This document shows positions 6,750 to 62,272 of a stretch of 64,000 bases of DNA, in pieces. A model generated the notes under the pieces. It made no database searches. It was not told the DNA's origin and saw nothing but the letters and a program-made list of their open reading frames with translations. The DNA comes from Streptomyces sp. NBC_00239 (GTDB taxonomy: Bacteria; Actinomycetota; Actinomycetes; Streptomycetales; Streptomycetaceae), in contig NZ_CP108095.1 in the NCBI RefSeq assembly GCF_036194065.1, positions 806,001-870,000 on the forward strand, read 5' to 3'. The position numbers and the translations under genes were made by a program. Within the stretch, counting starts at the first letter, position 1, and each line of letters starts with the position of its first letter.

Positions 6750-6780
6750 GTGTCGACTCCTCTCCTCTCTCGTTCTCTTT

Positions 6781-7656: not shown

Positions 7657-7741
7657 GGACCCTCCCTCGCCTGCGCGTCTCATGCTGCGCGCCTGCCCGC
7701 GGAGGCCCGAGCCATGCACCGGCCGGGCGGCCGTGGGCCCG

Positions 7742-8734
7742 TCACTCGTCGGACAGCAGCTGTGCGCGCAGGTCGCGCAGGGTGCGGGAGAGGATGCGGG
7801 AGACGTGCATCTGGGAGAGGCCCAGCTCGGCGCCGATCTCCGCCTGGGTCATCTCCTGGCCGAAGCGGAGCCGCAGGACGCGGCTGGAGCGTTCGTCCAG
7901 GCCGGCCAGGAGCGGCGCCAGCGCGTGCCAGTCCTCGACGGCTTCCAGGGCGGGGTCGGTGTCACCGAGGGTCTCGGCGAGGCTGTGCGCCGAATCGGTG
8001 GCCGCTGCGGCCTGGGCGCCGTCGCCGGCGGAGCCGTGCGGGGTGTCGAGGGACTGGGCCGAGTACCCGTTGGCCGCCACCAGGCCCTGGCGGACCTCGT
8101 CCTCGGTGATGTCCAGGCGCGCGGCCAGTTCCGCGTGGGTGGGGGCGTGGTCGAGGAGGGCGGTGAGTTCCTCGGTGGCCTTCGCCAGTTCCACGCGCAG
8201 TTCCTGCAGGCGGCGGGGCACCCGTACGGCCCAGGCGGTGTCCCGGAAGTGGCGTTTGATCTCGCCGGTGATGTAGGGCAGGGCGAGCGTCGTGAACTGG
8301 GTGTTGCGGTCCGGGTCGTACCGGTTGATCGCCTTGATCAGACCGATGATGCCGACCTGAACGATGTCCTCGTTCTCCGGGCCGCCGGGGCGGTTGCGGA
8401 ACCCGCGGGCGGCGAAGTTCACCAGCGAGATGTTCATTTCGATCAGTGTGTTGCGTACGTACTGGTACTCGCGGGTGCCCTCTTCGAGGCTGTGGAGCCG
8501 TTCGAAGAACAGCCGGGTCAGCTGCCGGGCGTCGCGGGGGGCCAGTTCCCGGGGGCAGCGCACGTCCGGCAGCCCGCTCAGCGCGGGCGTGTCGGCGGTG
8601 CGGGTCGGGAGTGCGACCTCCCGCGCGGGGAGACCGGCCTCGGTCTCCGCTCCGGTGTCCGCTCCGGTCTCCGCGTAGGTCGCGGCCGGGATCGTGGCCT
8701 GGTCGGTCGTCTCGGTCGGGGCGGTGGAAAACAT
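7742..8734 (-). CDS. SigB/SigF-family RNA polymerase sigma factor
   Basis: About 330 residues. Region 2 is clear (NEDIVQVGIIGLIKAINRYDP then YITGEIKRHFRD), region 3 follows, and region 4 ends with the helix-turn-helix AEIGAELGLSQMHVSRILSRTLRDLRAQL. The lack of region 1.1 and the GEIKRHFRDT signature place it in the stress/sporulation SigB/F/G group of actinobacteria. The ATG at 8734 has AAGGAG at proper spacing; frames extend to 8842 without a better site. The N-terminal 60 residues are Thr/Ala/Glu-rich and atypical. No anti-sigma or anti-anti-sigma gene is adjacent, so control is probably in trans. Confidence 0.9.
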   Translation of the reverse strand: MFSTAPTETTDQATIPAATYAETGADTGAETEAGLPAREVALPTRTADTPALSGLPDVRCPRELAPRDARQLTRLFFERLHSLEEGTREYQYVRNTLIEMNISLVNFAARGFRNRPGGPENEDIVQVGIIGLIKAINRYDPDRNTQFTTLALPYITGEIKRHFRDTAWAVRVPRRLQELRVELAKATEELTALLDHAPTHAELAARLDITEDEVRQGLVAANGYSAQSLDTPHGSAGDGAQAAAATDSAHSLAETLGDTDPALEAVEDWHALAPLLAGLDERSSRVLRLRFGQEMTQAEIGAELGLSQMHVSRILSRTLRDLRAQLLSDE

Positions 8735-8908
8735 CGTCTTCGCTCCTTGGGCACGGATGCTTGCGGCGCGTTGCGCGATCGCTGTGGACATGCGGAGTAG
8801 TGGTTCCGCATGCCCTGCACCCTGCCTGGATGACGGACACACGTCAAGGGATACCGGAAAAGCAGTTCTGGATTTGTCTTTCGCGAGTCAGCACTCAAGA
8901 ATGGCGCC

Positions 8909-9337
8909 GTGGAAACTGAGCACACCGGATCGCGCCGGAGCAACTGGACGTTCCTGACGAACCACGCCCGGGTCCTGATCGCGATCGCGCGCGACCCGGG
9001 TGTCCGGCTGCGCGACATCGCGGCGGTCTGCGACCTCACGGAGCGCACGGTCCAGGCGATCGTCACGGACCTGCAGGCGGACGGCTACCTCACCCGGATG
9101 CGCGACGGCCGGCGCAACCGCTACGAGATCGCGCCCGGGGCACGCTTCCGCCACCCCGCGGAGTCCGGGCGCGAGATCACCGGGCTCCTCGCCTACCTCG
9201 CCGCGCCGCTTACGGCTCCGCCACGCACGGACGGCGAGGCGCCGTACGCCGGACCCGAAGACGACGGAGCCGAAGACGCCGGACCCGAGGGCCCCGGACC
9301 CGAGGACGCCGGCCACGGGTCTGACAACGCCCGCTAG
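8909..9337 (+). CDS. Winged helix-turn-helix regulator (MarR-like)
   Basis: 142 residues from a GTG at 8909. Residues 10-75 form a winged helix: HARVLIAIARDPGVRLRDIAAV, then recognition helix TERTVQAIVTDLQADGYL and wing RMRDGRRNRYEI. The last 45 residues are acidic and repetitive (Pro/Glu/Asp/Gly), with repeats of the type GPEDAGPE, unlike a normal ligand domain. It is divergent from the SigB/F-family sigma gene (174 bp apart), so it may control that promoter; this is inference. Confidence 0.75.
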   Translation: METEHTGSRRSNWTFLTNHARVLIAIARDPGVRLRDIAAVCDLTERTVQAIVTDLQADGYLTRMRDGRRNRYEIAPGARFRHPAESGREITGLLAYLAAPLTAPPRTDGEAPYAGPEDDGAEDAGPEGPGPEDAGHGSDNAR

Positions 9338-9507
9338 CGCGGGGCCCGTTGGCTCCGCACGGTCGCGGCGGGGGCGGCGTCCGGCCTTCCCGCGCGGCCC
9401 AACGCCCTTGTCCGCGAACCGGTTCCGCCGGGCCGAACCGTTTCGCCCGGGGCATCCGGGGTAGCCGCGCGGCCAGAGACGACGCATCCGACGAGGAGGC
9501 AACACTC

Positions 9508-9720
9508 ATGGCCGGCATAAGCGGTTGCATCGCCCTGATCGTGGTGGGGGCCGTGCTCACCTTCGCGAGCGACTGGCACGTGGACAACGTCAACCTCGAT
9601 GTGGCGGGCGTGATCATGATGCTCGCCGGACTGCTCGGACTCGGCGTCTACCGCAGCGTCCTGCGCCGCCGCCGCGTCCCCGCCCTCCCGGTGATCGACG
9701 AGACCCGCGACCGGACCTGA
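9508..9720 (+). CDS. DUF6458-type small membrane protein
   Basis: 70 residues with two hydrophobic helices separated by the hallmark segment DWHVDNVNLDVAG and ending in a basic tail (RSVLRRRR). GAGGAGG lies 8-14 bases before the ATG at 9508. Such proteins are widespread single-copy actinobacterial membrane proteins of unknown role. It converges on the NRPS gene with a gap of only 28 bp. Confidence 0.8.
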   Translation: MAGISGCIALIVVGAVLTFASDWHVDNVNLDVAGVIMMLAGLLGLGVYRSVLRRRRVPALPVIDETRDRT

Positions 9721-9748
9721 GGCGGTCCGGCCGGGGCCGGGCCGGGTG

Positions 9749-12700
9749 TCAGTCGAGCTCTCCGACTGCTTCCAGGTGCTGCCAGAAGTCCCGGATCATC
9801 CGCTCGTCGACATCGGGCAGGGCCACGCCGAGCCGTTCCAGGGCGCGCACGGTCCGGTCGTTGCGGTAGGTGTCGGCCGGGAGGCCCTCGACATCCCCGG
9901 CATCCCCGGCATCCGAGGCGTCCGCCGCGTCCGCGGCTCGCGGCGCGTGCTCCGAGGCCTCGACGTGCTGCTGGAACATGTCCAGGTACGGCAGGAACGG
10001 CAGGTCGCGCCCCTCTTCGCTCGCCCGCCTGAGGCGGCGCAGCCACACGTCGAGCCCGACCGGTTCCGACCGCGTCCCGCGCCACGCGTCGAAGACCCGC
10101 AGGAACGCGCCCACACCGGTCTGCCGGGGGTGCTGGAGGTGGTGCACGGCGGCCGGTTCCGGGCCCTCCCCCGCCAGGGCGAGGGCCACCAGCGCGCGGG
10201 CCGCGACGTCGGCGGGCAGCAGGTCGACCCGCAGCGCGTCGCCCTCCGGGTAGCAGCCGAGGGCGGCGCAGCTGAGGAGCAGCCGGCAGAACATGTCGTC
10301 CGGGTTGATGGCGCCCCGCTCCGACTCCGCCCAGATCCGGCCTAGCCGGTAGACCCGCGCGGACGCACCGCGGGCGACGGCGTCCTTGACCATCAGGTCG
10401 GCCACCCACTTGCTCGCGAGGTAGCCGTCGGCGGCGCCGTGCCGCGCGTCCTCGACCGGGGAGTCCTCGGTGAGGAGCCTCGGTGTCGCCGCGCTGCCGA
10501 AGATGCCCAGCGTGGAGACGTGGTGGAAGCGCTTGGGCCGGCCCTCGGCCGCGAGCCGCAGCAGGGTGCGCGTGCCTTCGACGTTGGCCGCCTTCAGGCG
10601 CTCGTACGCCGACACGTGGTGCACGTACGCGCCCGAGTGGACGATCGTGTCCACCTCGTCCCGCAGCCCGCGCCAGTGCGCCGCGTCGATGCCGAGGCCT
10701 TCGCGGGCGAGGTCGCCGGGCACGAGGCGCACGCGCTCGGCGGCGACGCCCAGGTCGATGCCGTACGAGTCCAATACCGCGTGCAGGCGGGCACGCCCGG
10801 CCCGCTCCGTGTCGGCCCGTACCAGGCAGTGCACCTGGGCGTCGGTCTGCGCGAGGAGTTCCCGGAGCAGGAAGGCTCCCACGAATCCGGTGGCGCCGGT
10901 GAGCAGGACGTGGCGCGGGGGTGCGGCGAAGCCGCCGGCGTCCGGAAACCGCAGGCCGGGCGCGAGCCGCGCCTCCGACGGCGGCACGACCGAGGGCGCG
11001 CCGGACGCGCGGCCCGTCGCGCCGGCCGCGAGCAGGGCGGCGAGGTCGGCGGGCCGCGGGGCGGTGAGGAAGTCCTGCACGGCGATGCGGGCACCGAGTT
11101 CGGCGGCGACGCGGGCGAGCAGCCGCACGATCAGCAGGGAGTGGCCGCCGAGGGCGAAGAAGTCGTCGTCGACGCCGACCCGTTCCGCGCCCAGCACCTC
11201 CGCGAACAGGGCGCACAGGGTCTCCTCCTGCGCCGTGCGCGGGGCCCGGTACGCGCCGGTGCCGGTGGTGGGGTCCGGGGCGGGCAGCGCGGCGCGGTCG
11301 AGCTTGCCGTTGGGGGTGAGCGGGAGCCGGTCCAGGGCCACGAAGGCCGAGGGGACCATGAAGTCGGGCAGCCGCGCCGCCACGAAGGCGCGCAGCGCTC
11401 CGGCGTCGACGGCTTCCCCCGTGGTGTAGGCCACGAGTTGTTTCCCGGTGGGCGCGTCCCGCACGACGGCCGCGGCCCGGGTCACGGCGGGATGGGCGGC
11501 GAGGGCGGCCTCGACCTCGCCGGGTTCGACGCGGAAGCCGCGGATCTTGATCTGGGTGTCGGTGCGTCCCGCGTACTCCAGTTGCCCGTCGCCGTTGCGG
11601 CGGGCGAGGTCGCCGGTGCGGTACATCCGGGAGCCGGGCGGCCCGTAGGGGTCGGCGACGAAGCGTTCGGCGGTCAGCGCCGACCGGCCGAGATAGCCGC
11701 GGGCGAGGCGGCCCGCGACGTACAACTCGCCGACGACACCGGCGGGAACGGGCTTCAGCCAGGGACCGAGCACGTAGGCGCGCATGCCGGGCAGCGGGGT
11801 GCCGATGGGCGCGCTGCCCCCACCGCTCCGGGTGCCGTCGGCGGTGAAGGCGGTGGCGTAGAAGGACTCCGTCTGGCCGTAGGCGTTGACGATCCGGACG
11901 CCGGGGAACGCCTTCCGCGCGCGCCGGACGAGGGTCGAAGGGAGGTGCTCTCCCGCGAAGACGAGGGTGTCGACGCTGGTGGTGGGGGCGATCTGGTCGA
12001 GGAGCTCGGTGAACGCGGACGGCACGGTGCTGATGAGGCTGCCGTTCCAGGTGCCGCGTTCGGCGAGTTCGAGCACGTCCTGGGCGAGGTCCAGGGTGCC
12101 GCCGTGGCACAGGGTGGTGAAGGTCTCGAAGACGGACACGTCGAAGTTGATGGAGGTGGAGGCCAGCACGGGCGAACCGGCTCGGATGCCGGTCTGGTGC
12201 GCGAGGTGGTGGATGCCGTGGGTGAGGGTGGCGTGGTCGAGCAGGACGCCCTTGGGGGTGCCGGTGGAGCCGGAGGTGTACATCACGTACGCCAGCGCGC
12301 GGGGGTCCGGGCGGCCGCCGGCGGGCGCGGGCGGCCGGCCGGGGGTGACCGGGGCCGGGCCGGCGCCCGGCCCGCGGGGCGCGTCGGGGTCGCCCAGGTA
12401 CAGGACCGGGACGGTGGCTTCGGGCAGCACGCCGGCCGTCGCCCTGTCGGTGAGGATCAGGGCCGGGGCGGCGTCGCCGAGGATGAAGTCCAGGCGTGCG
12501 CTCGGGTACTTGGGGTCGATCGGCAGGTAGGCGGCGCCCGCCTTGAGGACCGCGAGCAGGGCGACGACCAGGTCGGGCGAGCGCGGCAGCGCGAGGGCCA
12601 CCACGGTCTCCGGGCCGGCGCCGTGGGCGGCCAGTTCCCGGGCGAGGCGGTCGGCGCGCGCGTCGAGCTCCGCGTACGAGAGGGCTTCGCCGTCGCAGAC

Positions 12701-13717
12701 GAGGGCGGTCGCGTCCGGTGTCGCCGCCGCCTGCCGCTCGAAGAGCTCGGGGAGCGTCGCCGTCGGGGCCTGTGCCTGAGGCCGGGCAGGCGCGTGAGCC
12801 TCGACATGAGCATGAGCATGAGCCTGCGCCCGCGTGTGCGTGTGCGTCTGAGCCTCTGCCTGGGTGGCTCCGATGCCTCGGAGGAAGTGGTCGCGGTCCG
12901 CCGGGGGCAGGACGTCGACGCGGGCCAGCGGCTCGTGGGCGGCGGTCAGGACCAGGCGCAGGACGTCGGGCAGGCACGCGGCGATGTGGTCGACCGTGGC
13001 CCGGTCGAGCGCGGACGGCCGGTACTGGAGCGACAGGCTCAGGTGCGGGGCGAGAGCCGCCATCAGGCTGAGCGTGTAGTGGGTGCCGGTGAACGGGCGC
13101 AGGCCCGTGATGGCGATCCCGGCCGCCGTGGCCGCGTCGGCGGCCTCGTCCTCGTCCACCGGGTAGGACTCGAACACCACGAGCGTGTCGAAGAGTTCCT
13201 TGAGGCCGGTGGCCTGCTGGATCGCGGACAGGCTGTAGTGGTGGTGGTCGAACAGGGCGGCCTGCCGCTCCTGGAGCGTGGTCAGGACCTGCGCGAACGA
13301 GGTGCCAGGGGCGCACCGTACGCGTACCGGCAGGGTGTTGATGAACAGGCCGACCATCGACTCGACACCGGCGACGGCGGGCGGGCGTCCGGAGACGGTG
13401 GCTCCGAAGACCACGTCGTCCCGGCCCGTGAGCCCGGCGAGCAGTACCGCCCAGGCGCCCTGGACCAGGGTGTTGACGGTCACGCCGAGCTCGGTGGCAC
13501 GGCGTTGCAGAGCCCGGGCATCCGCCGCGTCCAGCGCCACCTCGACCTGCTCCAGGCCGGTGTGCTCGAAGCCGCTCTGCTCGACGCCGGTCCGCTCGAA
13601 GCCGGACGCATCGAAGCCGGGCGTATCGAAGCCGGGCGTATCGGCGGAGCCGCGCTGCCGGGCCGGCATGAGGCTTTCGTGAGCGACGGAAACGCCTAAC
13701 GGACGCAATGGGATCAT
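9749..13717 (-). CDS. NRPS with half condensation domain, A, T and terminal reductase (C*-A-T-R)
   Basis: About 1322 residues. Residues 55-300 match only the second lobe of a condensation domain ([21 protein letters not shown]); the first lobe with HHxxxDG is missing and no trace lies upstream. Adenylation domain about 318-820: [18 protein letters not shown] (not the usual GPTE), [15 protein letters not shown]. Carrier site LGGHSL near 855. The C-terminal 390 residues are a thioester reductase: [13 protein letters not shown] site and the YLASK Tyr/Lys pair, predicting release as aldehyde or alcohol. The A-T-R order resembles Lys2 and carboxylic acid reductases. The ATG at 13717 includes a TTA codon (codon 7); an alternative ATG at 13669 would exclude it. 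A His/Ala-rich linker precedes the A domain. No tailoring genes adjoin it. Confidence 0.85.
13560..13650. repeat. 15-bp minisatellite in the NRPS 5' end
   Basis: Degenerate tandem 15-bp units built on TCGAAGCCGGGCGTA encode repeated pentapeptides of the pattern D/E-x-x-G-F near residues 22-52 of the NRPS. The clearest copies, at 13613-13642, are adjacent and nearly identical. This low-complexity stretch stands in place of the missing N-lobe of the condensation domain. Confidence 0.7.
13697..13699 (-). promoter_or_regulatory. TTA (bldA-dependent) codon in the NRPS
   Basis: Leucine codon TTA at codon 7 if translation starts at the ATG at 13717. In Streptomyces the only tRNA for TTA is bldA, which matures late, so TTA codons usually mark developmentally gated genes. 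If the true start is the ATG at 13669 the codon lies outside the gene. Confidence 0.55.
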
Positions 13718-14323
13718 CCCCCAGATGACGGGTGCGGTGTCGGCGAGGGGGTTCGCGGCTGTGTCGGGCCGCCCTCCACTCGCCCTGCGAGGGCAGCAGA
13801 AGGGAGCCCCCTGAAGGCAGTTAACGTATCGATAGCGCGTGATGTCCAGACAAGTACGGCAGCGGCAGCGGCAGGGCATGGGCCCGGGGCGGGTGGGGTA
13901 AACAGGCGCAGCACGGCCGGCGGCCTCGGTGGTCGGGACGTAGGCGGTGGGGCGAGGTGTCCCGGCGCCGGGACACGGGAATTCGACGGAAACGGCGACC
14001 ACGGCCACGGCCACGGCCACGACCACGACACGTCCACGACGGCGGCCACGACGGCGACACCGCCGTCAGCCTGCTCCGATGTGGAGCGCAGGTGGCCGGT
14101 TGGTGACTGGTGGCTGTGGGGCTTCTGTGGTTGTACGGGGCCGTGTTGCGATTGGGGCGCCCTCGGGTCTCACCGCAATCACGATCTCCCCACCAAGGTC
14201 TTTTCGCGCAGGACCGACCCCGTGACGACCGTAGATTGTTGATCACCGCAGTTCTCCGTGAGCGCCTTCCCATCGTCGCGCGCCCGGGCTGCCGTCTTGT
14301 GAGTCCTAGGGGAGATCCAGCCC
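13718..14323. other. Divergent intergenic region, NRPS / lipoprotein
   Basis: 606 bp with no supported gene. It holds an AT-richer patch at 13818-13845 (GTTAACGTATCGATAG) that could carry the NRPS promoter, a CCACGG hexamer run at 13999-14030, and a lower-GC stretch near 14228-14250 (TAGATT) upstream of the lipoprotein. No convincing -35/-10 pair was fixed. Confidence 0.5.
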
Positions 14324-15043
14324 ATGCGTACGACCCTCGTCCGCCGTTCTGTCATGACCGCGTCCGCCGTGTGCCTGGCCCTGGTGGCCACCGCCTGCGG
14401 CTCGGACGAGCCCGCCGCGAAGGACGGGGCCAAGAGCCCGTCCAAGGACGGCTCGTCCGCCCCGGCGGCGAAGGCGCTGACATCGGCCGAGCTGGAGAAG
14501 CTCGTGCTGGCGCAGGGCGACGTCCCCAAGCACCAGATCACGAAGTCGAAGGAAGTGATCAAGAGCTCCGACATCGTGACCGACAAGGCCGAGTGCAAGC
14601 CCATCGGCGACGCGATGATGCTGCTCCCCGTCGGTACGGCGGCCGCGTCGGCCGCCCGGGTCGCGGCGGGCGAGCCCACGAAGCCGGGCGACCTGCTGTC
14701 CGTCACGGCCACCTCGGTGCTCATCGCCTCGTACGAGGGCGATGGCGCCGAGCAGGCCGTCGCGCAGCTCAAGAACGCCGGCCAGGCCTGCGCGGGCGGC
14801 TTCACCGTGACCGCCAAGGGCGAGAAGAACGAGGTCACCGGGCTCGCCCCGGCCACGGTCACGGGCGGCGACGAGGCCGTGGCGGCGACCGTGTCCCGGA
14901 AGCTCGACGGCGAGTCCGCGCAGACCAAGCTGGTGGTCATCCGCAAGGGCAACACCCTGGTGACCCTGCACGCGATCAACTTCTCCGGCAAGACCGAGCT
15001 CCCGACCGCCCTCATGGAGGCCCAGCTCAAGAAGCTGGGCTGA
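14324..15043 (+). CDS. Putative lipoprotein
   Basis: 239 residues. Basic n-region (MRTTLVRR), hydrophobic core and lipobox LVATAC, with the modified Cys at residue 25, followed by a Ser/Ala/Lys-rich linker. The mature part (about residues 55-239) has a mixed alpha/beta pattern with Cys residues in KAECKPIG and GQACAGGF that could form a disulfide. It is similar in build to PknH-sensor-like or LppX-like extracytoplasmic proteins of actinobacteria, but I cannot assign a family. A GC-rich hairpin follows the stop. Confidence 0.75.
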   Translation: MRTTLVRRSVMTASAVCLALVATACGSDEPAAKDGAKSPSKDGSSAPAAKALTSAELEKLVLAQGDVPKHQITKSKEVIKSSDIVTDKAECKPIGDAMMLLPVGTAAASAARVAAGEPTKPGDLLSVTATSVLIASYEGDGAEQAVAQLKNAGQACAGGFTVTAKGEKNEVTGLAPATVTGGDEAVAATVSRKLDGESAQTKLVVIRKGNTLVTLHAINFSGKTELPTALMEAQLKKLG

Positions 15044-15068
15044 CGGCACGGCCCGGGGCCGCTCGACG

Positions 15069-15096
15069 GGGGTCGCTCGCCCGGGCGGGCGACCCC
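15069..15096 (+). terminator. GC hairpin after lipoprotein gene
   Basis: Arms GGGGTCGCTCGCC (15069-15081) and GGCGGGCGACCCC (15084-15096) pair with one wobble; the innermost pairs would open as the loop. It lies 26 bp after the stop at 15043. There is no T-run, as is usual in Streptomyces. Confidence 0.5.
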
Positions 15097-15179
15097 GGGG
15101 CGGAACCGGGCACGTGGGTACTGCATCCTTCTCTCCACAGGCGCCCGGCCGGGGCGGCCGGTTCGGGGGGAAGACAACG

Positions 15180-15713
15180 ATGCTGGACGTGGAAGGAATC
15201 GGGGGCGCGTTCGGTGTCGTCTTCGGGATGATCGGGCTGCTGTTCGCGGCCATCGGGGTGACCATGGCGGTCGTCCTGGTGCGCCGGACGGTGCTGCGCA
15301 GCCGGACTCTGGCGCGCGGGCTGACCGCGGAGGCCCGCTGCCTGGACACGTACGTGACGCAGCACCGGGACACCGAGCACAGGCGCCGCACCGCCCGCCA
15401 CGTGATCCTCGGCTTCCGGACCCAGGACGGGCAGGACATCCGCTTCGAGGACACCTCGGGCGTGCCGCGCGTGGTCGGCGACTTCGTCCCGGTCCGCTAC
15501 CTCGCCCACCGTCCGCAGCAGGCGGTGGCCCTCGGTCCGGTCGCTCCCGGGCTGCGGATCGGGACGGTTCTCGGGCTGGCGTTCTGCACGGTCTTCGCGT
15601 GCGTCGGGCTCTTCTTCGCCGCGATCGGCTTCGGCGTGGGGTACCTGGCGGGCACGTCGGACCTGCCGGGTGACCCCGACGAGGTGTTCACGGAAACCGT
15701 CACCCGGCCCTGA
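15180..15713 (+). CDS. DUF3592-like membrane protein
   Basis: 177 residues with one N-terminal membrane helix (VVFGMIGLLFAAIGVTMAVVLV), an extracytoplasmic or cytosolic beta-rich domain (HVILGFRTQDGQDIRFEDTSG, VGDFVPVRYLAHRPQQA) and a second C-terminal helix pair, the DUF3592 pattern. The ATG at 15180 follows a GGGGGGAAG ribosome site; a longer frame from 15114 has none. Function unknown. Confidence 0.72.
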   Translation: MLDVEGIGGAFGVVFGMIGLLFAAIGVTMAVVLVRRTVLRSRTLARGLTAEARCLDTYVTQHRDTEHRRRTARHVILGFRTQDGQDIRFEDTSGVPRVVGDFVPVRYLAHRPQQAVALGPVAPGLRIGTVLGLAFCTVFACVGLFFAAIGFGVGYLAGTSDLPGDPDEVFTETVTRP

Positions 15714-15989
15714 CCTTTCGACCTGGACACCGGCACCACCCACCGCCTCCCCGCGGGCCGGCGTCCCCTGGGCATCGCCGTTCTCCGACCGGCAGACCAC
15801 GCAGGGATCGCGCTGGTATTCCAGCGGTGGATCGTCATCACGCCGGTGGTCGCCGACACTTGCCCGAGGTGGAGCCCGGGTGGCGGACAGCGTGGGGGAC
15901 GTGCTGCGGGCCCACGGGACGGACGCGGTCGCCGCCCGGCCCGCCGAGGAGGAGCGGCAGCCGCCGGGAGCGTGATCCCGCGGGCCGGA

Positions 15990-16610
15990 TCACAGGCTCG
16001 CGAAGAGGTCCTCCAGGGGCGCCGGCACCCGTGCGTCGTCGAGGGCCTCGACGAGGAGGTGGCCGTAGCGGATCTTGCGGCCCTTCTTCGTGCCGAGGAA
16101 GCGGCGCAGCTGCTGCTGCCGGGGGCGGCCGTGCTGGGCGGGCTGGCGCAGGAAGGTCTGCCAGGCCCGGAGGTCGCCCTCGGCACTGACGACCTCCTCG
16201 ACCCGGTCCGTGCCCAGCGCGCGGATGAACTCGTCCTCCAGGTCCGCCCCGCACACGAACACGTCCCGGTGCGAGGCCCCCGCCCGCGCCAGGCCGCGGT
16301 CGAAGAACGGCTGTTCCCGCGCGTCGCACAGCCCCACCAGGCGCAGGCCGAGACCGGGCGGCCCGAGGAGACCGGCGTAGCGGGCGACGTTCATCGCCCC
16401 GCCCATCGACACCACGCACACCCCCTCGGCGGCGAGGTCGCGGCCACGGCGAGCGGCGAGCGCCTCGACCGCCGCGAGGTCGCTCAGCCCCTCCAGCAGC
16501 ACCGCCGTACGCACTCCCAGCCGCGCCGCCAGCTCACCGGCCGTCGGCCCGTCGGGCCCACCGGCAGCCCTGCGGGCGATCTCGTCCCTGAACGCTTGTA
16601 TGTCCGCCAT
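15990..16610 (-). CDS. TOPRIM-domain protein (OLD-nuclease-like TOPRIM, no ATPase)
   Basis: 206 residues. After about 35 residues it shows a TOPRIM fold: the acidic start VLLEGLSDLAAVEALAAR (conserved Glu), VVSMGGAMNVARYAGLL, then GLCDAREQ as the DxD-like acidic motif, and VEEVVSAEGD. This TOPRIM type accompanies an ABC-ATPase in OLD nucleases; here it stands alone with no ATPase neighbour. The C-terminus is basic (RFLGTKKGRKIRYGHLL). Likely a metal-dependent nuclease or nucleotidyl-transferase/hydrolase. An in-frame ATG 15 bases upstream is a possible alternative start. Confidence 0.75.
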   Translation of the reverse strand: MADIQAFRDEIARRAAGGPDGPTAGELAARLGVRTAVLLEGLSDLAAVEALAARRGRDLAAEGVCVVSMGGAMNVARYAGLLGPPGLGLRLVGLCDAREQPFFDRGLARAGASHRDVFVCGADLEDEFIRALGTDRVEEVVSAEGDLRAWQTFLRQPAQHGRPRQQQLRRFLGTKKGRKIRYGHLLVEALDDARVPAPLEDLFASL

Positions 16611-16684
16611 GCAGCGAGTCTGCATCTCCGCAGACGGCCCGGCACGGAATTTTCGACAGGGGCAAGGGCCCGGGGGCGGCGCCG

Positions 16685-18577
16685 TTACGGCGTGCCGGTC
16701 AGGGCGAGGCGGAACGTGGTGAGGACGGCGGCGTGGTCCGAGGGCCAGCCGTTGTGGCGGACGTCCGGCCAGGGTCGGGGGGATCCGGCGGTCACCGTGG
16801 TCGAGCCGGTGACGGTGAGGGCGCGGCCCGCGCAGAGGACGTGGTCGATGCGGTCCTGGGGCTCCGGGCGGCCGCTGCCGTCCTCGTGGAACGGGTGGAC
16901 GGGCGACCAGGTGGGGCCGGGTTCGGTCACCGGGTCCGGGTGGGCCTCGCGGAACGAGTCGCGCAATCCGGCGGCCTCGACGGCCCGCGAGACGGGCCAG
17001 GCGACCGGCCCGTAGCCGGCGTGCAGCGGCGCGGCGGCGTCCGTCCAGTCCAGGTGCGAGGGGGCGTTGAAGTCGCCGAGCAGCAGCACGGGCGTGGTGT
17101 CTCGCTGCGCCAGGTCGTCGGCCATGTCGGTGAGGACGGCCTCGATCTCGGCGACCCGGTGCGCTTCGTGCTCGCGGGTGAGGAGGGTGGCGGCCGGCAG
17201 CCCGGCGAAGTGCGCGTCGTACGGGCCGTACGGGGTGTGGTTGAGGTGGGCGTTCCAGACCGCGACCTCCTGGCCGTGGGGCAGCCGGACGCGGGCACCC
17301 ATGCCGCCGTAGAAGCCGGGGGCCGGGTCTCCGAGGGTCCCGGTGATGGTGTGGCGGGTGAGGACGGCGAGGTTCGGCCCGGCCTGGTGGTGGTCCCAGC
17401 CGAGCGCGTCGGCGAGTTCCCGGGCGGCGTGGGCGCCGGTCTCCTGCAGGCCGACGATGTCGGCGTCCGACTCCAGCAGGGTGATGAGCTGCTTGTCGCG
17501 GGCGCCGTCGACGCGGTCGCCGCCCAGCCAGAGGTTCCACGTCATGACCCGCAGCTCGGCCGCCCCTGCGACCTCTTCGGCTGCTGCCGAAGCCGCCGTG
17601 GCCACCGTGGGGATGTGCACCGTCACGGTCGCCATCTCGTCCGCGGTCACGGTGATACGGGTCCCCGAGCCCGCCGGGTCCGCTGCCGACACGCCCACGC
17701 CCGTCGGGACGCCGGTCAGTTCACCGCCGGGCGTGATCCGCGCCCACGCCGGCCCCTCGCTGATCCGCCACCGCACCGCGTCGGCGTCCGCGACCCCCCG
17801 CAGCAGCCCGCCCAGCGCGCAGCGGTACGGCTGTCCCGGTACGGCCGGGCGGGCCCGGAACTCCCGTACGAGGAAGTGCGGCCGGGGCTGGAGTGTGGCG
17901 AGCAGGGCCGGGGTGACGCCCGTCAGGGAGGCGCGTACGAGCCGGCCCGGGGCGTGGGCGATGGGCGCGAGGGAGGGCACGGCGAGCACCGGGCAGCCGG
18001 CGGCCTCGGCGGAGGTGACACCGGTCATGGTGTCTTCGACGGCCACGCAGGCGGCGGGCGGCAGGCCGAGCGCGCGGGCGGCCTCGCGGTACGGGTCCGG
18101 GGCGGGTTTGGTGCGCTCGGTGTCCTCCGCCGCGAAGGTGACGGTGAACCGGCCGGCCCCCAGGGCCCGTACGACGAGGTCGACGACGGACCGCGGCGAG
18201 GCCGAGACCAGGGCGATCGGGATGCCCCGGGCGTGCAGGTCGTCGAGGAGCGCGAGGGCGCCGGGCCGGGGTTCGATGCGGGCCGACACACGGGCGGCGA
18301 AGGCCTGGTGGAGCTCTTCGGCGACGTCGGCCGCGGGACGGCCGGTGCCGGACGCGGTGTGCAGGTGTGCGGCGGTGTGTTCGACGGGCCTGCCCAGCAC
18401 GTCGGGCAGGTCCCGGTCGGTGACGGTGTACGGGAGTCCGGCCGCGACCTCCCCGACCGCGTCCCACCACAGGCCCTCGGTGTCCACGAGCGTGCCGTCC
18501 ATGTCGAAGAGGACGGCTCTGGGCAGGACCGGGTCGGGCGCGGCGGCGGAGGCGGGAGCGGTCACGGGGGCGGTCAC
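16685..18577 (-). CDS. HAD phosphatase - Ig-like - endonuclease/exonuclease/phosphatase fusion
   Basis: 630 residues from a GTG. Residues 18-220: HAD hydrolase of the beta-phosphoglucomutase-like branch (FDMDGTLVDT, VSASPRS, KPAPDPY, VEDTMTG). Residues about 235-345: a short Ig/cadherin-like repeat with the GPAWARITPGGELTGVP pattern. Residues about 345-630: EEP metal-dependent phosphodiesterase (MTWNLWLGG, GLQETG, WNAHLNHTPYG, LLGDFNAPSH, DRIDHVL, WPSDHAA), all catalytic motifs intact. No signal peptide is seen, although Ig-like repeats are usually secreted. It closes the ABC importer operon (45 bp after the ATPase), suggesting a phosphodiester and then a phosphomonoester are cleaved after uptake; this is inference. 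Confidence 0.85.
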   Translation of the reverse strand: MTAPVTAPASAAAPDPVLPRAVLFDMDGTLVDTEGLWWDAVGEVAAGLPYTVTDRDLPDVLGRPVEHTAAHLHTASGTGRPAADVAEELHQAFAARVSARIEPRPGALALLDDLHARGIPIALVSASPRSVVDLVVRALGAGRFTVTFAAEDTERTKPAPDPYREAARALGLPPAACVAVEDTMTGVTSAEAAGCPVLAVPSLAPIAHAPGRLVRASLTGVTPALLATLQPRPHFLVREFRARPAVPGQPYRCALGGLLRGVADADAVRWRISEGPAWARITPGGELTGVPTGVGVSAADPAGSGTRITVTADEMATVTVHIPTVATAASAAAEEVAGAAELRVMTWNLWLGGDRVDGARDKQLITLLESDADIVGLQETGAHAARELADALGWDHHQAGPNLAVLTRHTITGTLGDPAPGFYGGMGARVRLPHGQEVAVWNAHLNHTPYGPYDAHFAGLPAATLLTREHEAHRVAEIEAVLTDMADDLAQRDTTPVLLLGDFNAPSHLDWTDAAAPLHAGYGPVAWPVSRAVEAAGLRDSFREAHPDPVTEPGPTWSPVHPFHEDGSGRPEPQDRIDHVLCAGRALTVTGSTTVTAGSPRPWPDVRHNGWPSDHAAVLTTFRLALTGTP

Positions 18578-56076: not shown

Positions 56077-57561
56077 TCAGGCGGCCGCTGCCGCCGGCTG
56101 CGCCGCGCGGGCGGAGAGCGCCCGGGTGTAGCGGCGCAGGAGGAGGACGGCGGTGGTGGCGAGGCCGGTGAGGAGGCCGAGCCAGATGCCGAGGGTGTCG
56201 AGGCCGAGCGCGTAGGCGAGCAGCCAGGACGCGGGCAGGCCGACGGCCCAGTAGCCGATGAGGGTGATGCGGAATCCGCTCTTGGTGTCGTCGAGGCCGC
56301 GCAGGAGTCCGACGCCGATGTTCTGTGCACAGTCGAAGAACTGGAGGAAGGCGGTGACGATCAGGAGCTGGGTGGCGATGGTGAGGGCCTGGTCTGATCC
56401 GGAGTCGAGGAACGGCGCGAGGACCAGCTTGGGGAGGGTGAGGTAGAGCAGTCCGACGACGGCCATGACGGCGGCGGCGCAGGTCAGGGCGGTGTTCTTG
56501 AGGCGGCGGGCGTCTTCGTACTTGCCGAGAGCGAGCTCGCGGCTGACGTTGATCGACGCGGCGTGGGAGAGGCCGACGGCGACCTGGAAGACGATGTAGA
56601 CGAGCTGGTTGACGGCGGTGTGGGCGGCGAGCGCGTCGGGGCCGAAGGAACCCGCCATGAGGGCGGTGAGGGAGAAGAAGCCGGCCTCGGATCCGTAGGT
56701 GGCGGCGATCGGGATGCCGAGGCCGACGAGGCGCTTGACGGTGGCCGGGTCGGCCTTGGTGATGTCCAGGCTGAGGAGCGGGGCCAGCTCCTTGTCCTTC
56801 CGCGCGGACGCGTACAGGGCGAGGAAGGAGAGCAGGTAGACGCTGGAGGTGGCGATGCCGACGCCGGTGAGTCCGAGGCGGGGCAGGCCGAAGGTGCCGT
56901 GGATGAGGACCCAGTTGAGGCCCGCGTTGATCGCGACGGAGGCGATCGTGATCTGGAGGAGTGCCTGGGGGCGGCGCATGCCGACGGTGAACTGACGGAT
57001 CGCCTGGAACCAGAGGCAGGGCAGCAGGCCGGGGGCGAGCGCGTAGAGCATGGTCCGGGTGAGGTCGACGACGTCGGCGTCCTGGCCGAGCCAGGCCAGG
57101 GCCTGGCCGATGAGGACCATCAGGACGGCTCCGGCGATGCCGGCGAGGGTGGCCACCGCCAGGCTGGCGCGGACGATGCCCCGGACCTCGTCGTGGGCCT
57201 GCCGCCCTGCTGCGGACGCGCCGCCGCGTATTCGGCCGGCGCGTGTTCCGTCCCCGTTCCCCCCGTCCGCGCCCGCTCCGTCGTGGTCCGCGCCGTTGCC
57301 GCCGGCTCCGTCGGCCAGTTCCGCTCGGGCGGCCGCGGCGGCGATCTGGTTGCCGACGGAGGTGACCAGGCCGACGCCCATGGTGCGCAGCTGGTTGAAG
57401 ATGACGATGGCCAGGCCGCCGGCGGCCAGCTCGGTGGTGCCGAGGAGGCCCATCATCACCGTGTCGGTGGTGGTCAGGGCCACTTGGGCGAGCTGGGTGA
57501 GGATCAGCGGCACGGCGAGCACGCCGAGGGCGCGGCTGTCGCGGAGGAGGGTGGTCAGCAT
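56077..57561 (-). CDS. MATE-family efflux transporter
   Basis: 494 residues, 12 helices in two bundles (LGVLAVPLILTQLAQVALTTTDTVMMGLLG start; PATVKRLVGLGIPIAATYGSEAGFFSL second half). A Gly/Asp/Asn-rich insert of about 40 residues (about 85-125) interrupts the loop after helix 2 and is unusual for MATE. Starts 4 bp after the SbnA-like stop, so it is the last gene of the iron-boxed operon and the likely exporter of the product. Confidence 0.88.
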   Translation of the reverse strand: MLTTLLRDSRALGVLAVPLILTQLAQVALTTTDTVMMGLLGTTELAAGGLAIVIFNQLRTMGVGLVTSVGNQIAAAAARAELADGAGGNGADHDGAGADGGNGDGTRAGRIRGGASAAGRQAHDEVRGIVRASLAVATLAGIAGAVLMVLIGQALAWLGQDADVVDLTRTMLYALAPGLLPCLWFQAIRQFTVGMRRPQALLQITIASVAINAGLNWVLIHGTFGLPRLGLTGVGIATSSVYLLSFLALYASARKDKELAPLLSLDITKADPATVKRLVGLGIPIAATYGSEAGFFSLTALMAGSFGPDALAAHTAVNQLVYIVFQVAVGLSHAASINVSRELALGKYEDARRLKNTALTCAAAVMAVVGLLYLTLPKLVLAPFLDSGSDQALTIATQLLIVTAFLQFFDCAQNIGVGLLRGLDDTKSGFRITLIGYWAVGLPASWLLAYALGLDTLGIWLGLLTGLATTAVLLLRRYTRALSARAAQPAAAAA

Positions 57562-57565
57562 GGGT

Positions 57566-58594
57566 TTATCGGTTCCCGCGGAGTTTGGTGAGCAACTCGT
57601 CGATTTCGCGTTCGGCCTCGGCGTTGAGGAGATCGCGGGCCTGCATCCAGTCGTCGTTGAAGACGGTGTCCATGTACTTTTCGCCGCCGTCGTTGATGAG
57701 GGCGACCATAGTCGTACCGGGGGGCAGGGAGGCCAGGCGGGTCAGCGCCTCGTAGACGACACCGCCGGCGGACCCGCCGATGAGGAGGCCCGTACGGGCG
57801 ACGGCGCGGCAGGTGGCGAACGCTTCGACGTCGCCGACCTTGACGCCTTCGTCGATGAGGTCGAAGTCGACGAGCGCGCCGATCTCGGCGCCTTCGGGGG
57901 TGCCGGTGCCGGACTGGTAGTAGTCGTGGGCGGGGCCGCCGAAGGCGATGGAGCCCTTGGGCTCGACGCCGATGACGGTGAAGCCGGACATCAGCTTGGT
58001 CAGCTCCCGGCTGGTGCCGCAGAGCGCGCCGCCGGTGCCGACGGCGCCGATGAGGACGTCGATCTTCCCTTCGAGGGCCTCGTGGAGTTCGTGGGCGACG
58101 GGGAAGTAGCCGACTCCGTTGGCGGGGTTGTTGTGCTGCTCGGTGAAGACGGTGTTGTCCTGGCCGCGCGCCATGTCCTCGGCGAGTTCCTCGCGGGCGG
58201 CGGTGGCGAGCTCCTCGGTGCCGTCGTCGACTACGTAGACGAGTTCGGTGCCGAGGGCCTTCATGCCGCGGAGTTTGTCGGTGCAGGCGTGGTTGTCGAC
58301 GACGGCGGTGAAGGTGTAGCCGCGTTCGGCGGCGATGACGGCGAGACCGAGGCCTGTGTTGCCCGAGGTCGACTCGATGATCCGGCCGCCTTCGCGCAGT
58401 TCGCCGGCGGTCTCGGCGGCGTCGATCATGGCGCGGGCCATGCGGATCTTCGCCGTACCGGTGGGGTTGAACATCTCCAGCTTGAGCAGGAGGCGGCTGC
58501 CGGTTTCGGTGGCGGCGAGTTCGAGCAGGGGGGTGTAGCCGATGAGATCGGATACGCGGGAGACCACGGCGGGGCGCTGAAGGGCTCCGGGCAT
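57566..58594 (-). CDS. sbnA: SbnA-like PLP enzyme (N-(2-amino-2-carboxyethyl)-L-glutamate synthase)
   Basis: 342 residues, fold-type II cysteine-synthase family. PLP Lys in NPTGTAKIRMA (cysteine synthases read NPxxSVKDR), phosphate/substrate loop STSGNTG, GTGGAL, and C-terminal GGSAGG. Together with an SbnB neighbour this identifies the phosphoserine- and glutamate-using branch making ACEGA, the precursor of L-2,3-diaminopropionate, not cysteine synthase. Lies 63 bp after the decarboxylase. Confidence 0.85.
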   Translation of the reverse strand: MPGALQRPAVVSRVSDLIGYTPLLELAATETGSRLLLKLEMFNPTGTAKIRMARAMIDAAETAGELREGGRIIESTSGNTGLGLAVIAAERGYTFTAVVDNHACTDKLRGMKALGTELVYVVDDGTEELATAAREELAEDMARGQDNTVFTEQHNNPANGVGYFPVAHELHEALEGKIDVLIGAVGTGGALCGTSRELTKLMSGFTVIGVEPKGSIAFGGPAHDYYQSGTGTPEGAEIGALVDFDLIDEGVKVGDVEAFATCRAVARTGLLIGGSAGGVVYEALTRLASLPPGTTMVALINDGGEKYMDTVFNDDWMQARDLLNAEAEREIDELLTKLRGNR

Positions 58595-58657
58595 CGGTAA
58601 CTCCAGAAGGCAGAAGGGTCGTGGGAGGCGGCAGGCCGGTGAGGGGCGCGCCGGGCG

Positions 58658-60022
58658 TCAGGTGAAGTGGCGGTCCAGGCGCCAGCGGGGGCGCGGCCGG
58701 TCGGTCCGGTCGATGACGACCTTGGGCGGCAGGGCCAGGTCGTGGAAGGGGGATTCGTTGGAGTCCATCTGGTAGCCGGCCGTGTTCGGGTAGACCAGCA
58801 GGTCTCCGGTACGGGGTTGGTGGCGCAGGGGGACCTTGCGCCAGGTGAGCATGTCCGACTCGAGGCAGGTGGCCGCACCGACGCTCGCCGGGAAGGTGCC
58901 CGCCGCGCGGTCCGGGTCCTGGGGAAGGAGGACGGGGTCGGGCAGGTACTCGCTGTTGAACCACTGCTCGGACAGGCTCAGGCTCGTGCCGTCGACGGTG
59001 AGGATCCGGTAGCCGTCGCGGTCCTTGACGCCCTGGATGCGGAAGACCGTGGCGCCGGCCTGGTCGAGCAGGGCCCGGCCGGGCTCCAGGAGGAGGGTGA
59101 CGCCGGCGTCCTTGAGGAGGTCCGCGACGGGGTGTTCGCGGCTCGCGGGCCGGGTGGCGAGGAGCGCGGCGAGGGCTTCGGCTCCGGCCACCGGGGAGTG
59201 GTAGGGGTAGAAGTCGCCGGGGTGGAACTTCTTGCCCGCGTGGTAGTGGCCGCTGTGCTGTTCGGCGAGGAAGGCGCGCCAGCTGTCGGCGTCGCTGTAG
59301 CTGACGGGCAGGCCCCCGCCGATGCTGATGCGGCTCGCTTCGAGGCCCTGGACGCGGGCCTTGAGGCACAGTTCGACCAGGTGGGCGGCGAGGTCGGCGC
59401 GCGGCTGGAGGGCGTAGCCGGACAGGTGGAAGGAGAACCCTTCCATGCGTACGGCGTCCCCGGCCTCCACGCACCGGTCCAGGGCCGTGGTCAGCTCGGC
59501 GCCGGTGAGTCCGAAGCGGCTGTGGGGCTGGGCCGCGGGCAGGACGCGCAGCAGGATGCGGGCGGGGCGGACGCGGCCGGTCGAGGCGGTGGTGACGACG
59601 GCGTCGAGCTCGTCGAGGGCGTCGACCGCGATCAGGGCGCCGTGCAGGACGGCCAGGTGCAGCAGCGCCGGGTCCTTGGCGGGGCCGGTGACGACGAGGT
59701 GTTCGCCGCGCACGCCGTGGCCGAGGGCCTCGCGCAGTTCGGCGACGGAGGCCACGTCCACACCGGCGCCGCCGGCGGCCGCGCGTTCGACGAAGACGGC
59801 GGCCTTGTTGGCCTTCTTCGCGAAGTACACGAAGCCGTCGACCCCGGCGGTGGCCACCGCGTCCTGCATCGCCCTCAGGTTGGTGTCGAAGGCGTCGGGC
59901 AGCAGGAAGTGGAACGGGCCGCCGAAGGCGTAGGCCAGTTCGGGGAGCAGGCCACTGGACAGGACCCGCTCGGCGGCGGGGTCGGCCAGCACCGGCAGGG
60001 TGGGCAGGGTGGGACCGTTCAC
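58658..60022 (-). CDS. Fold-type III PLP decarboxylase (SbnH/LysA-like)
   Basis: 454 residues. PLP Lys in VYFAKKANK (about 70), FHLSGY, ISIGGGLPVSY, EPGRALLDQAG, and catalytic Cys region GAATCLESDML with YPNTAGYQMDSNES. It matches diaminopimelate/ornithine-type and siderophore (SbnH) decarboxylases. The GTG at 60022 overlaps the SbnB stop as GTGA; a second GTG lies at 60028. In staphyloferrin B, SbnH decarboxylates a citryl-Dap intermediate; here the substrate is unknown, as no NIS synthetase is in view. Confidence 0.85.
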   Translation of the reverse strand: MNGPTLPTLPVLADPAAERVLSSGLLPELAYAFGGPFHFLLPDAFDTNLRAMQDAVATAGVDGFVYFAKKANKAAVFVERAAAGGAGVDVASVAELREALGHGVRGEHLVVTGPAKDPALLHLAVLHGALIAVDALDELDAVVTTASTGRVRPARILLRVLPAAQPHSRFGLTGAELTTALDRCVEAGDAVRMEGFSFHLSGYALQPRADLAAHLVELCLKARVQGLEASRISIGGGLPVSYSDADSWRAFLAEQHSGHYHAGKKFHPGDFYPYHSPVAGAEALAALLATRPASREHPVADLLKDAGVTLLLEPGRALLDQAGATVFRIQGVKDRDGYRILTVDGTSLSLSEQWFNSEYLPDPVLLPQDPDRAAGTFPASVGAATCLESDMLTWRKVPLRHQPRTGDLLVYPNTAGYQMDSNESPFHDLALPPKVVIDRTDRPRPRWRLDRHFT

Positions 60023-61032
60023 TGCCACAGCGCGACCTCGGTGCCCAGGCCCTGCGCGAGGGCGAGTTGGGCGAAGCGGTGGCCGAGGGCGATGTCGGTG
60101 ACGACGAGGCCGCTGTTGTATGCGAAGATCCGCTCCTCGGCGCCGGTGCGGCCGGCGGCGGCACCTGCGATGACGGGCGGGAACTCGGCGTCGACGGAGG
60201 GGAGTTTGCCCTCGGCGTCCGCCATGTCGGTGCCGGTGACGTTCATTTGGGCCTCGCTCGTGGCGATGACCCGGTCCGCCTCGTGGAGGGTGGACGGCGC
60301 GAGGCCGTGGCCGACGAGGATCGACAGCGCGCCGGGCTTCAGCCAGGAGGCTTCCACGGCGGCCTCGGTGTGCCCGCCGGCGGTGGCGACGATGACGTCG
60401 GCGTCCGCGGCGGCGGCCCGCAGGTCGGTGACGATCTCCACGTCCCGGTCGGGGAAGTGGGTGCGCAGTTGCTCGCGGACCGCGGCGATGCCCTCCGGGT
60501 GGGTGCCGGACAGCAGGAGGCGGTCGAGGTCCGGGAGGGTGGTGAGGAGGAACGGCAGCGCGAGCCGGCCCTGGGTTCCGGTGCCGATGACGAGCGCCGT
60601 TCGGGCTCCGGGGGCGGCCAGTTCCCGGGCGAGCAGGGCGGAGACGGCCGGGGTGCGCAGGGAGCCGATGCGGGAGCAGTCCATCATCGCGACCGGCAGG
60701 CCGGTGACGTCGTCGTAGATCGTCAGAGCGGTGTAGTAGTGCTGCTCCTCGCGGCCCTTGTCGAGGCCGTGCTTGTAGGAGGTCTTGATGGCGACGACTT
60801 CGCGGGAGCCGTCGCGGCCGAGCATCGCGTAGGAGACCGAGTGTCCGTCCTGCGGCTTGACGGTCAGTTTCCGGGGGTTGTCGGACTGGCCGGCCTGGAG
60901 GGTGCGGTAGGCGCCCTCCACCGTGGCCACCACGTCGGCCAGGGAGATGTCGATCCCGGCGAGGTCGCTGGTGGACAGGATGCGCAGGTGCTTGTCGTCG
61001 CCGGATATGTGGGCGGACGCGGTCTCGGTCAT
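60019..61032 (-). CDS. sbnB: SbnB-like dehydrogenase (ornithine cyclodeaminase/mu-crystallin family)
   Basis: 337 residues. Rossmann site ALVIGTGTQGRLALPFL (about 140-155), substrate Lys/Arg in KTSYKHG and DCSRIGSLRTPAVSALLAREL, NVTGTDMADAEGKLP near the C-terminal half. SbnB oxidises ACEGA to L-2,3-diaminopropionate plus 2-oxoglutarate; adjacency to SbnA in the same operon supports this against plain cyclodeaminase. ATG at 61032 has GGAGGA. 58 bp downstream of the oxygenase. Confidence 0.85.
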   Translation of the reverse strand: MTETASAHISGDDKHLRILSTSDLAGIDISLADVVATVEGAYRTLQAGQSDNPRKLTVKPQDGHSVSYAMLGRDGSREVVAIKTSYKHGLDKGREEQHYYTALTIYDDVTGLPVAMMDCSRIGSLRTPAVSALLARELAAPGARTALVIGTGTQGRLALPFLLTTLPDLDRLLLSGTHPEGIAAVREQLRTHFPDRDVEIVTDLRAAAADADVIVATAGGHTEAAVEASWLKPGALSILVGHGLAPSTLHEADRVIATSEAQMNVTGTDMADAEGKLPSVDAEFPPVIAGAAAGRTGAEERIFAYNSGLVVTDIALGHRFAQLALAQGLGTEVALWQ

Positions 61033-61090
61033 GGTGGTGTTCCTCCGGTGCGGGAGCGGCGGTGGTCGGTTCGCGTGCCGTCGAGGCCGG

Positions 61091-62086
61091 TCAGTTGGCG
61101 TGCGCTTCGAGGGCGCCCTGGCCGTAGCCGTGTTCGCCGGCTTCGGCCTCGGGGCGGGTACGGCGGCCCGGGACGCGCACGGAGGCGCGCTTGAGCCAGC
61201 GGTCGGTGCCGTCGTAGCGGGCTTGGAAGGGGACGCGGCCGTGGACCACGAGGTCGTTGTCGACGACGAGGACGTCACCCGGGGTGAGGCTGACGGCGAC
61301 GGAGACGCGGGCCAGTTCGGCCGAAAGTCGACCGTAGGCGGCCCGGTAGGCGTCGTCGGCCTGGTCGACGGGGGTGTACGCGGGGTCGTAGCGCAGGGTC
61401 ATGCCGTCTTCGGTCGCGAAGAGCGCCGGAACCGCGGGCGGGGCCTGTTCGGCGAAGCCCTGGGCCTCTTCGTAGGCGTCGTCGGGGAGGATCGGCAGGA
61501 CCGGCCGGACGAGGAGGTCGATGTCCTCGTCGGCGAGGCGGGTCTTGCGGATGCTGGCCGCCGTGGTGGCGATGTCGTCGTGGTTGCGCATGCAGCCGAG
61601 GATCAACAGGTGGGCGCGGCCCGGGTGGAAGGCGTCCTCGGTGTGCGGGCTGAGAAGCACCGTGCTGCTGGCGCCGGTCTGTGCGGTCTCGTGGCCGGGC
61701 GAGGGGACGATGTTGTGTACGAAACGCCCGTCCTGCTGGCCTTCCCAGGCGATGGGGTTGCCCATCACGGTGGAGAGCAGGAGCAGGGCGATGTCGTGGA
61801 CCGCTCCGCTGTCGCCGGCCGTGGCCCAGCTGGAGGGCGTGGTCCCGATGGCGGCGTCGTCCACTTCGATGCCGCGCAGGATGTACAGGCCGTCCTCGGT
61901 GTCGACCGGCCGGCAGTGCGCGCGCAGTTCGTCGCTCAGGCCGGCGGCGGTTTCGGCAACGCGGGCCAGGAGCTGGGGGCTTGTGGCGGACGTGCCGAAC
62001 TCGGCGAGGATCTTCTCCGCGGCCAGGCGGAGTTCACCCACGGTGTGGGGGTCGAGCTTGCGGACAGGTGCGGCTGCCGTGCTCAT
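61091..62086 (-). CDS. TauD/TfdA-like Fe(II)/2-oxoglutarate oxygenase (amino-acid hydroxylase)
   Basis: 331 residues of the clavaminate-synthase/arginine-asparagine-hydroxylase group. Metal ligands HTEDAFH (about 157, H-x-E/D) and distal His in VVDNDLVVHGRVPF (about 282), followed by RWLKRASVRV with the 2-oxoglutarate Arg. First gene of the operon; the product would hydroxylate an amino acid or peptide-like intermediate. The 2-oxoglutarate released by SbnB is also its co-substrate. ATG at 62086 has a modest ribosome site. Confidence 0.85.
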   Translation of the reverse strand: MSTAAAPVRKLDPHTVGELRLAAEKILAEFGTSATSPQLLARVAETAAGLSDELRAHCRPVDTEDGLYILRGIEVDDAAIGTTPSSWATAGDSGAVHDIALLLLSTVMGNPIAWEGQQDGRFVHNIVPSPGHETAQTGASSTVLLSPHTEDAFHPGRAHLLILGCMRNHDDIATTAASIRKTRLADEDIDLLVRPVLPILPDDAYEEAQGFAEQAPPAVPALFATEDGMTLRYDPAYTPVDQADDAYRAAYGRLSAELARVSVAVSLTPGDVLVVDNDLVVHGRVPFQARYDGTDRWLKRASVRVPGRRTRPEAEAGEHGYGQGALEAHAN

Positions 62087-62253: not shown

Positions 62254-62272
62254 TCAGGTAAGGCAAACCTTA
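62254..62272. promoter_or_regulatory. DmdR/IdeR iron box 1
   Basis: TCAGGTAAGGCAAACCTTA, 168 bp upstream of the oxygenase start, close to the actinobacterial iron-box consensus TTAGGTTAGGCTNACCTAA. Placed to control the leftward biosynthetic operon. Confidence 0.8.

Follow-up and report, generated by a model that had tools for sequence, protein, structure and literature searches.

A 64,000-nucleotide stretch of Streptomyces sp. NBC_00239 (contig NZ_CP108095.1, positions 806,001 to 870,000; hereafter the window, in whose coordinates positions are given) carries at its right-hand end a locus that we identify, with a probability of roughly 0.91, as a cluster of the ethylenediaminesuccinic acid hydroxyarginine (EDHA) type. 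EDHA is an aminopolycarboxylate siderophore reportedly described by Spohn et al. in 2018 (Metallomics 10:722), so the locus would belong to an already described system. Membership of the gene family and synteny are seen directly in the comparison, and the product would be carried over from published strains. The original prediction, made from this DNA alone, had noted five tightly spaced same-strand genes at 56077-62086, a divergent family-5 solute-binding protein, and iron boxes between them, all of which we confirmed; it had correctly picked out a siderophore locus that is real and conserved. It had also treated the system as an unplaced one, and that part does not hold, the synteny matching a published cluster.

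Synteny with the EDHA cluster

The EDHA assignment follows from nine-gene synteny with two strains that have been tied to EDHA in print. Streptomyces sp. MA5143a (L145 in our numbering of loci) has the complete set of nine genes in unchanged order, with 52-78% identity per protein, and Streptomyces scabiei 87-22 (L136) has nine syntenic genes (54-77% identity) in a block of 10,969 bp (NC_013929, 589813-600781). Gene order, orientation, extent (~11 kb), and the presence of box-like sites in the divergent gap are the same as in the window; apart from the protein identities and boxes that are weaker in MA5143a and S. scabiei, no other difference was found. The SbnB-like protein has a single match at E ≤ 1e-10 in each of these genomes, 78% identical in MA5143a, the second-best SbnA-like match in the two reaches 37-38%, and the oxygenase query hits once in MA5143a and twice in S. 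scabiei, where the weaker hit reaches 31%. In the passages of the literature that bear on these strains, MA5143a is the reference strain for the EDHA operon (PMC10702961), and an 11-kb S. scabiei cluster, scab_5231-5311, is linked to EDHA with Spohn et al. 2018 cited (PMC8914351). Excerpts from two further sources list the EDHA cluster as MIBiG BGC0002567 with 597 Streptomyces members (PMC11888242) and report a rule for aminopolycarboxylic acid metallophores added to antiSMASH 7 (PMC10320115).

The whole unit spans 11.4 kb and consists of five biosynthesis and export genes and four importer genes (Table 1), the latter completed from the neighboring DNA of the same genome beyond the end of the window. 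Spacing is tight: the SbnB-like and decarboxylase genes overlap by 10 bases, the SbnA-like and MATE genes are 4 bases apart, and a divergent gap of 377 bases separates the oxygenase gene from the binding-protein gene. The SbnB-like protein is divergent from its namesake model (97.7 bits against TIGR03944, cut-off 326.9) and matched no Pfam family at E 0.001; the SbnA-like protein scores 225 against TIGR03945, its best model, with a cut-off of 350.

The oxygenase is probably an arginine 3-hydroxylase, judging from its sequence. Its top NCBIfam models, GntD (251 bits, cut-off 345) and VioC (211 bits, cut-off 418.6), are both matched below cut-off, and its closest relative of solved structure is an L-arginine beta-hydroxylase. 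His148, Glu150, His282, Gln117, and Asp234, which by analogy with VioC would bind iron and contact the substrate, do not vary among the aligned oxygenases (78 of 78), those of MA5143a and S. scabiei included (6 of 84 candidates had been dropped because they gave no long match). Since the protein is nearest to L-arginine hydroxylases and conserves these motif residues, it agrees with the hydroxyarginine arm of EDHA.

Table 1. Features of the EDHA-type locus in window coordinates (the window ends at 64000)
Feature	Position	Strand	Basis or remark
MATE family exporter	56077-57561	-	PF01554; operon-end position conserved
SbnA-like pyridoxal 5′-phosphate (PLP) beta-replacement enzyme	57566-58594	-	TIGR03945 top model
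PLP decarboxylase, fold type III (diaminopimelate/ornithine decarboxylase fold)	58658-60028	-	PF02784
SbnB-like (ornithine cyclodeaminase/mu-crystallin family) NAD(P)-dependent enzyme	60019-61032	-	TIGR03944
VioC/OrfP/NapI-type Fe(II)/2-oxoglutarate oxygenase, probable arginine 3-hydroxylase	61091-62086	-	331 aa; PF02668; best PDB relative an L-arginine beta-hydroxylase
Predicted iron box (DmdR/IdeR type) TCAGGTAAGGCAAACCTTA	62254-62272		upstream of biosynthetic operon; 4 mismatches
Predicted iron box (DmdR/IdeR type) TTAGGATAGGCAAACCTAA	62346-62364		upstream of importer operon; 2 mismatches
Family-5 solute-binding lipoprotein	62464-64023 (window ends 64000)	+	divergent from oxygenase operon
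Permease 1 (BPD_transp_1)	starts 64020, outside window	+	importer
Permease 2 (BPD_transp_1)	starts 65027, outside window	+	importer
Fused two-domain ATP-binding cassette (ABC) ATPase	65872-67446, outside window	+	importer

Iron boxes and the weighing of the assignment

Two sites in the divergent gap match what we take to be the DmdR/IdeR iron-box consensus, one before each operon. For the importer-side box, none of 100 shuffles gave a match at 3 or fewer mismatches. Homologous gaps between oxygenase and binding-protein genes contain a match within 4 mismatches in 71 of 74 cases and within 3 in 47 of 74, the background rate at 4 or fewer mismatches being 0 in shuffled gaps and 0.003 in stretches drawn at random from these loci. 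From these box sequences, iron-responsive control of both operons is predicted, and the two boxes together with the gene families support the iron-boxed metallophore operon with SbnA/SbnB-type chemistry that had been proposed for this DNA.

Several points weigh against the EDHA assignment. The SbnB- and SbnA-like proteins do not reach the cut-offs of the NCBIfam models after which they are named. The EDHA match is one of synteny, and L136 is linked to scab_5231-5311 by its gene content, its size, and its approximate position; nine tags would suit nine genes if, as we presume, they run in steps of ten. The boxes are not uniform: 3 of the 74 gaps have no match within 4 mismatches, the best matches in MA5143a and S. 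scabiei 87-22 have 4 and 5, and among oxygenase-bearing loci outside the 74, the best matches have no fewer than 6 mismatches in L182 and 5 in L183, and L086, where the importer is absent, has no iron-box match. The operon counted in PMC10702961 has four genes, AesA-D, in a passage that names neither an oxygenase nor an importer. By our own mapping, AesA-D would be the SbnB-like enzyme, the decarboxylase, the SbnA-like enzyme, and the MATE exporter.

The identities of 52-78% to the MA5143a proteins also leave room for a congener, with the same scaffold and another hydroxylation pattern or another second amino acid, and the presence of two distinct cluster copies in each of three genomes (S. 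cinnamoneus, L102/L123; strain SAJ15, L120/L135; strain DSM 15324, L128/L137) could be read in the same way. Against such a product, the catalytic and presumed substrate residues of the oxygenase are invariant across all 78 sequences, and among the motif blocks listed, SbnA and SbnB agree with MA5143a. We consider a congener unlikely and EDHA itself the better reading.

As a simple rule, the equation of hydroxylase with iron box is weakened by the poor boxes of L182 and L183 and their absence from L086; the data suggest that the pairing is a tendency, not a rule. In two genomes of another genus, a Zur-like site with 3 mismatches lies 39 bases before the oxygenase gene (L183, 11431; L208, 11460).

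Borders, distribution, and variant loci

No nonribosomal peptide synthetase (NRPS) gene and no gene for an NRPS-independent siderophore (NIS) synthetase is found among the nine genes, as the original prediction had noted. The DNA to the right of position 64000, where it had proposed to look for synthetases and permeases, holds the two permeases and the fused ATPase. A genome-wide search with PF04183 gave five IucA/IucC matches, the nearest at ~1.383 Mb and all more than 500 kb from the locus, so that no SbnC/E/F-type set of NIS synthetases stands in or next to the cluster. PF00668 gave 31 condensation-domain matches genome-wide. The nearest is a partial match ~43 kb to the left (12890-13552, minus strand, in an open frame of 1438 aa), and to the right there is none within 480 kb on the contig, the nearest lying at ~1.360 Mb; both fall outside the conserved unit. 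The largest open reading frame listed to the right, after filtering by GC content and in DNA up to window coordinate 89,000, is 717 aa.

These searches bear on a siderophore of the staphyloferrin B kind, or another NIS product, assembled by synthetases encoded elsewhere in the genome. The window shares with the staphyloferrin B cluster (sbnA-I) an SbnA, an SbnB, and a fold-III PLP decarboxylase, which by analogy we presume to play the role of SbnH, and the genome has the five IucA/IucC matches. Yet the unit lacks NIS synthetases, has a MATE exporter where the sbn exporter is of the major facilitator superfamily type, and has a family-5 importer, and it recurs as a block of nine genes in 64 of 80 loci. 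With every IucA/IucC match more than 500 kb away, staphyloferrin B made with distant synthetases was rejected and is the least credible reading considered here, in keeping with the earlier view that the product is not staphyloferrin B.

The figure of 64 comes from a scan of named genomes that found 324 relatives, the best 80 of which were kept, a gene being counted as present above identity thresholds that we set. The five biosynthesis and export genes, for which a joint neighborhood search had been suggested earlier, occur together in 72 of the 80; of the 16 incomplete loci many are truncated by a contig end, L086, L111, and L142 lack importer genes despite long flanks, and L156, also with long flanks, lacks more. 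On the left, a cupin gene and an overlapping cytochrome P450 gene (54187-55988) converge with the MATE gene, and on the right a DinB-type gene follows the locus; none of these three was matched at more than 50% identity in any of the 80 loci, where the flanks compared reached at most ~7 kb past the MATE gene and ~3 kb past the ATPase gene and were shorter in some loci. A right-hand permease-like gene (R_ABC3) had matches above 50% in two loci, L087 and L102. Because the nine genes recur in 64 of 80 loci while the cupin, P450, and DinB-type genes do not, the unit is bounded at nine genes and ~11 kb by this sequence comparison.

Within the genus, the decarboxylase finds matches at E ≤ 1e-40 in 78 of 295 genomes, 35 of them with at least 50% identity (own genome counted), and we read the gene content of 40 loci around such hits. 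All nine genes are present in 25 (the decarboxylase match of L066 being split in two), four are partial (L052, L053, L056, L065), two are without the importer (L068, L069), one has eight genes and no oxygenase (L067), and two have the SbnB, decarboxylase, SbnA, and MATE genes only (L070, L071). The remaining six (L072-L077) have only a distant decarboxylase (33-35%) and an SbnA-like protein (27-30%), with one stray ATPase match and no match to SbnB, oxygenase, or MATE, and by sequence are another family. With SbnB as the marker, 36 of the 295 same-genus genomes and 6 of 396 in a phylum sample are positive, own genome counted in each; the 36 include the three oxygenase-free loci and L207. A search of a class sample with the L070 SbnB as the query was positive in 12 of 394 genomes, again with the genome of the window counted.

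The oxygenase-free loci L070 and L071, a rare type found in 2 of the 295 genomes, carry directly ahead of the operon a Zur-like box that departs at 2 positions from what we take to be the Zur consensus. Both have a Peripla_BP_2 protein nearby, and L070 adds genes for a CobW GTPase and a FecCD permease. The biosynthesis of the chelator [S,S]-ethylenediamine disuccinate (EDDS) in Amycolatopsis japonicum is described, in the part of the source concerned, as unlike that by NRPS or NIS and as under Zur (zinc) control (PMC4993170). The features of L070 and L071, two loci only, fit that picture, and both are probably EDDS-like zincophore loci.

The window itself could then be imagined as an EDDS-type zinc chelator cluster with an incidental oxygenase. 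It shares the SbnA, SbnB, decarboxylase, and MATE core with the presumed EDDS-like L070 and L071, and presumably its core enzymes with the EDDS cluster; moreover, a weak Zur-like match with 3 mismatches occurs in the window gap at 62331. Zur controls the EDDS cluster, however, whereas the window combines iron boxes with a gene resembling those of arginine hydroxylases, and L070 and L071 differ from it in having no oxygenase, closer Zur-like boxes, and Peripla_BP_2, as well as SbnB proteins only 42-43% identical to that of the window. Given the iron boxes, the oxygenase, and a Zur-like match of only 3 mismatches, EDDS as the window product was rejected, and we hold it to be very improbable.

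L067 (G233, 6474-17301) combines SbnB, decarboxylase, SbnA, and MATE genes with the family-5 importer and an iron box (3 mismatches), with no oxygenase match in the locus, and is a possible undescribed iron-type aminopolycarboxylate cluster. Two other loci, L156 (a Mycobacterium metagenome-assembled genome) and L184 (G443, a genome of the same class), have SbnB, decarboxylase, and MATE genes and a divergent SbnA-like protein (32-34%); neither gave an importer or metal-box match. A second SbnB-like gene in the genome of the window (G000:C1:1104472-1105464; L185, ~8473-9465) is 73% identical to the first, with no other biosynthetic cluster gene in the 29 kb around it. Having lost the LRTPAVSA-motif arginine that iron-type copies show, this copy may be inactive or have another role. 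In G014 (L207, 3361-4317), an SbnB homolog of 48-49% identity stands beside a TetR-like regulator gene, judged by eye, and the other eight cluster genes had no match in the 13 kb read.

Predicted pathway and metal control

A scheme for the EDHA-type locus can be drawn from its gene families. At low iron, a DmdR/IdeR-type repressor would leave the two boxes, and both operons would be expressed. The oxygenase would hydroxylate L-arginine at C3, the SbnA-like enzyme would couple one amino acid, either hydroxyarginine or aspartate, through its alpha-amino group with the beta carbon of activated serine, and the decarboxylase would take off the carboxylate of the serine part, so that an aminoethyl group is left. 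Working as an imine reductase, the SbnB-like enzyme would add the second arm as a 2-keto acid, for example oxaloacetate to give a succinate arm; it is assigned the second C-N bond because atom counting leaves no other enzyme for it. The MATE protein would export the product, and the family-5 binding protein and ABC importer would return the iron complex to the cell, a division of roles proposed earlier and consistent with the nine conserved genes. The order of the steps and the reductive direction of SbnB are what we infer; a search of the open-access literature found no paper on the enzyme order of an EDDS-type pathway.

Of the two nitrogens of the bridge, one would come from the amino acid joined to serine and the other would be the serine amino group after decarboxylation. 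The probable product has two amino-acid arms, arginine and succinate, connected through the ethylenediamine bridge, with the hydroxyl on arginine and not on 2,3-diaminopropionate (Dap), as the name of EDHA implies. The hydroxylated, decarboxylated Dap product of the original prediction is thus probably incomplete: hydroxylation and decarboxylation are retained, and the hydroxyl would move to arginine and a second arm be added. Between the window and L070/L071, two loci only, identity is 42-43% for SbnB, 57-59% for SbnA, and 48-50% for the decarboxylase; SbnB being the most divergent of the three agrees with its handling the arm that changes, whichever arm is added first.

Opine metallophores such as staphylopine and pseudopaline also enter the cell as a small metal complex by a family-5 (CntA-like) route, and a reductive N-alkylation step would be common to them and the window locus. 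They differ from it in that, the families listed for the nine genes include no nicotianamine-synthase-like model and no classical opine dehydrogenase model, and the window binding protein scores 79 against a CntA cut-off of 800.

The analysis assigns an apparently puzzling operon to a known siderophore family, delimits it to nine genes and 11 kb, and shows how often its core occurs in the genus (the 36 of 295 SbnB-positive genomes). The hydroxylase occurs mostly with iron boxes, and its absence goes with Zur-like boxes in two loci, a suggested link that is not absolute; the enzyme order and L067, the exception to that link, are the most useful leftovers. Our tentative proposal, with the odds slightly against it, is that SbnA, the decarboxylase, and SbnB form a modular trio that never releases free Dap, in which a swap of one amino acid, hydroxyarginine or aspartate, together with the metal box would switch the product between siderophore and zincophore; relatives of the L067 type would then make an undescribed iron chelator.

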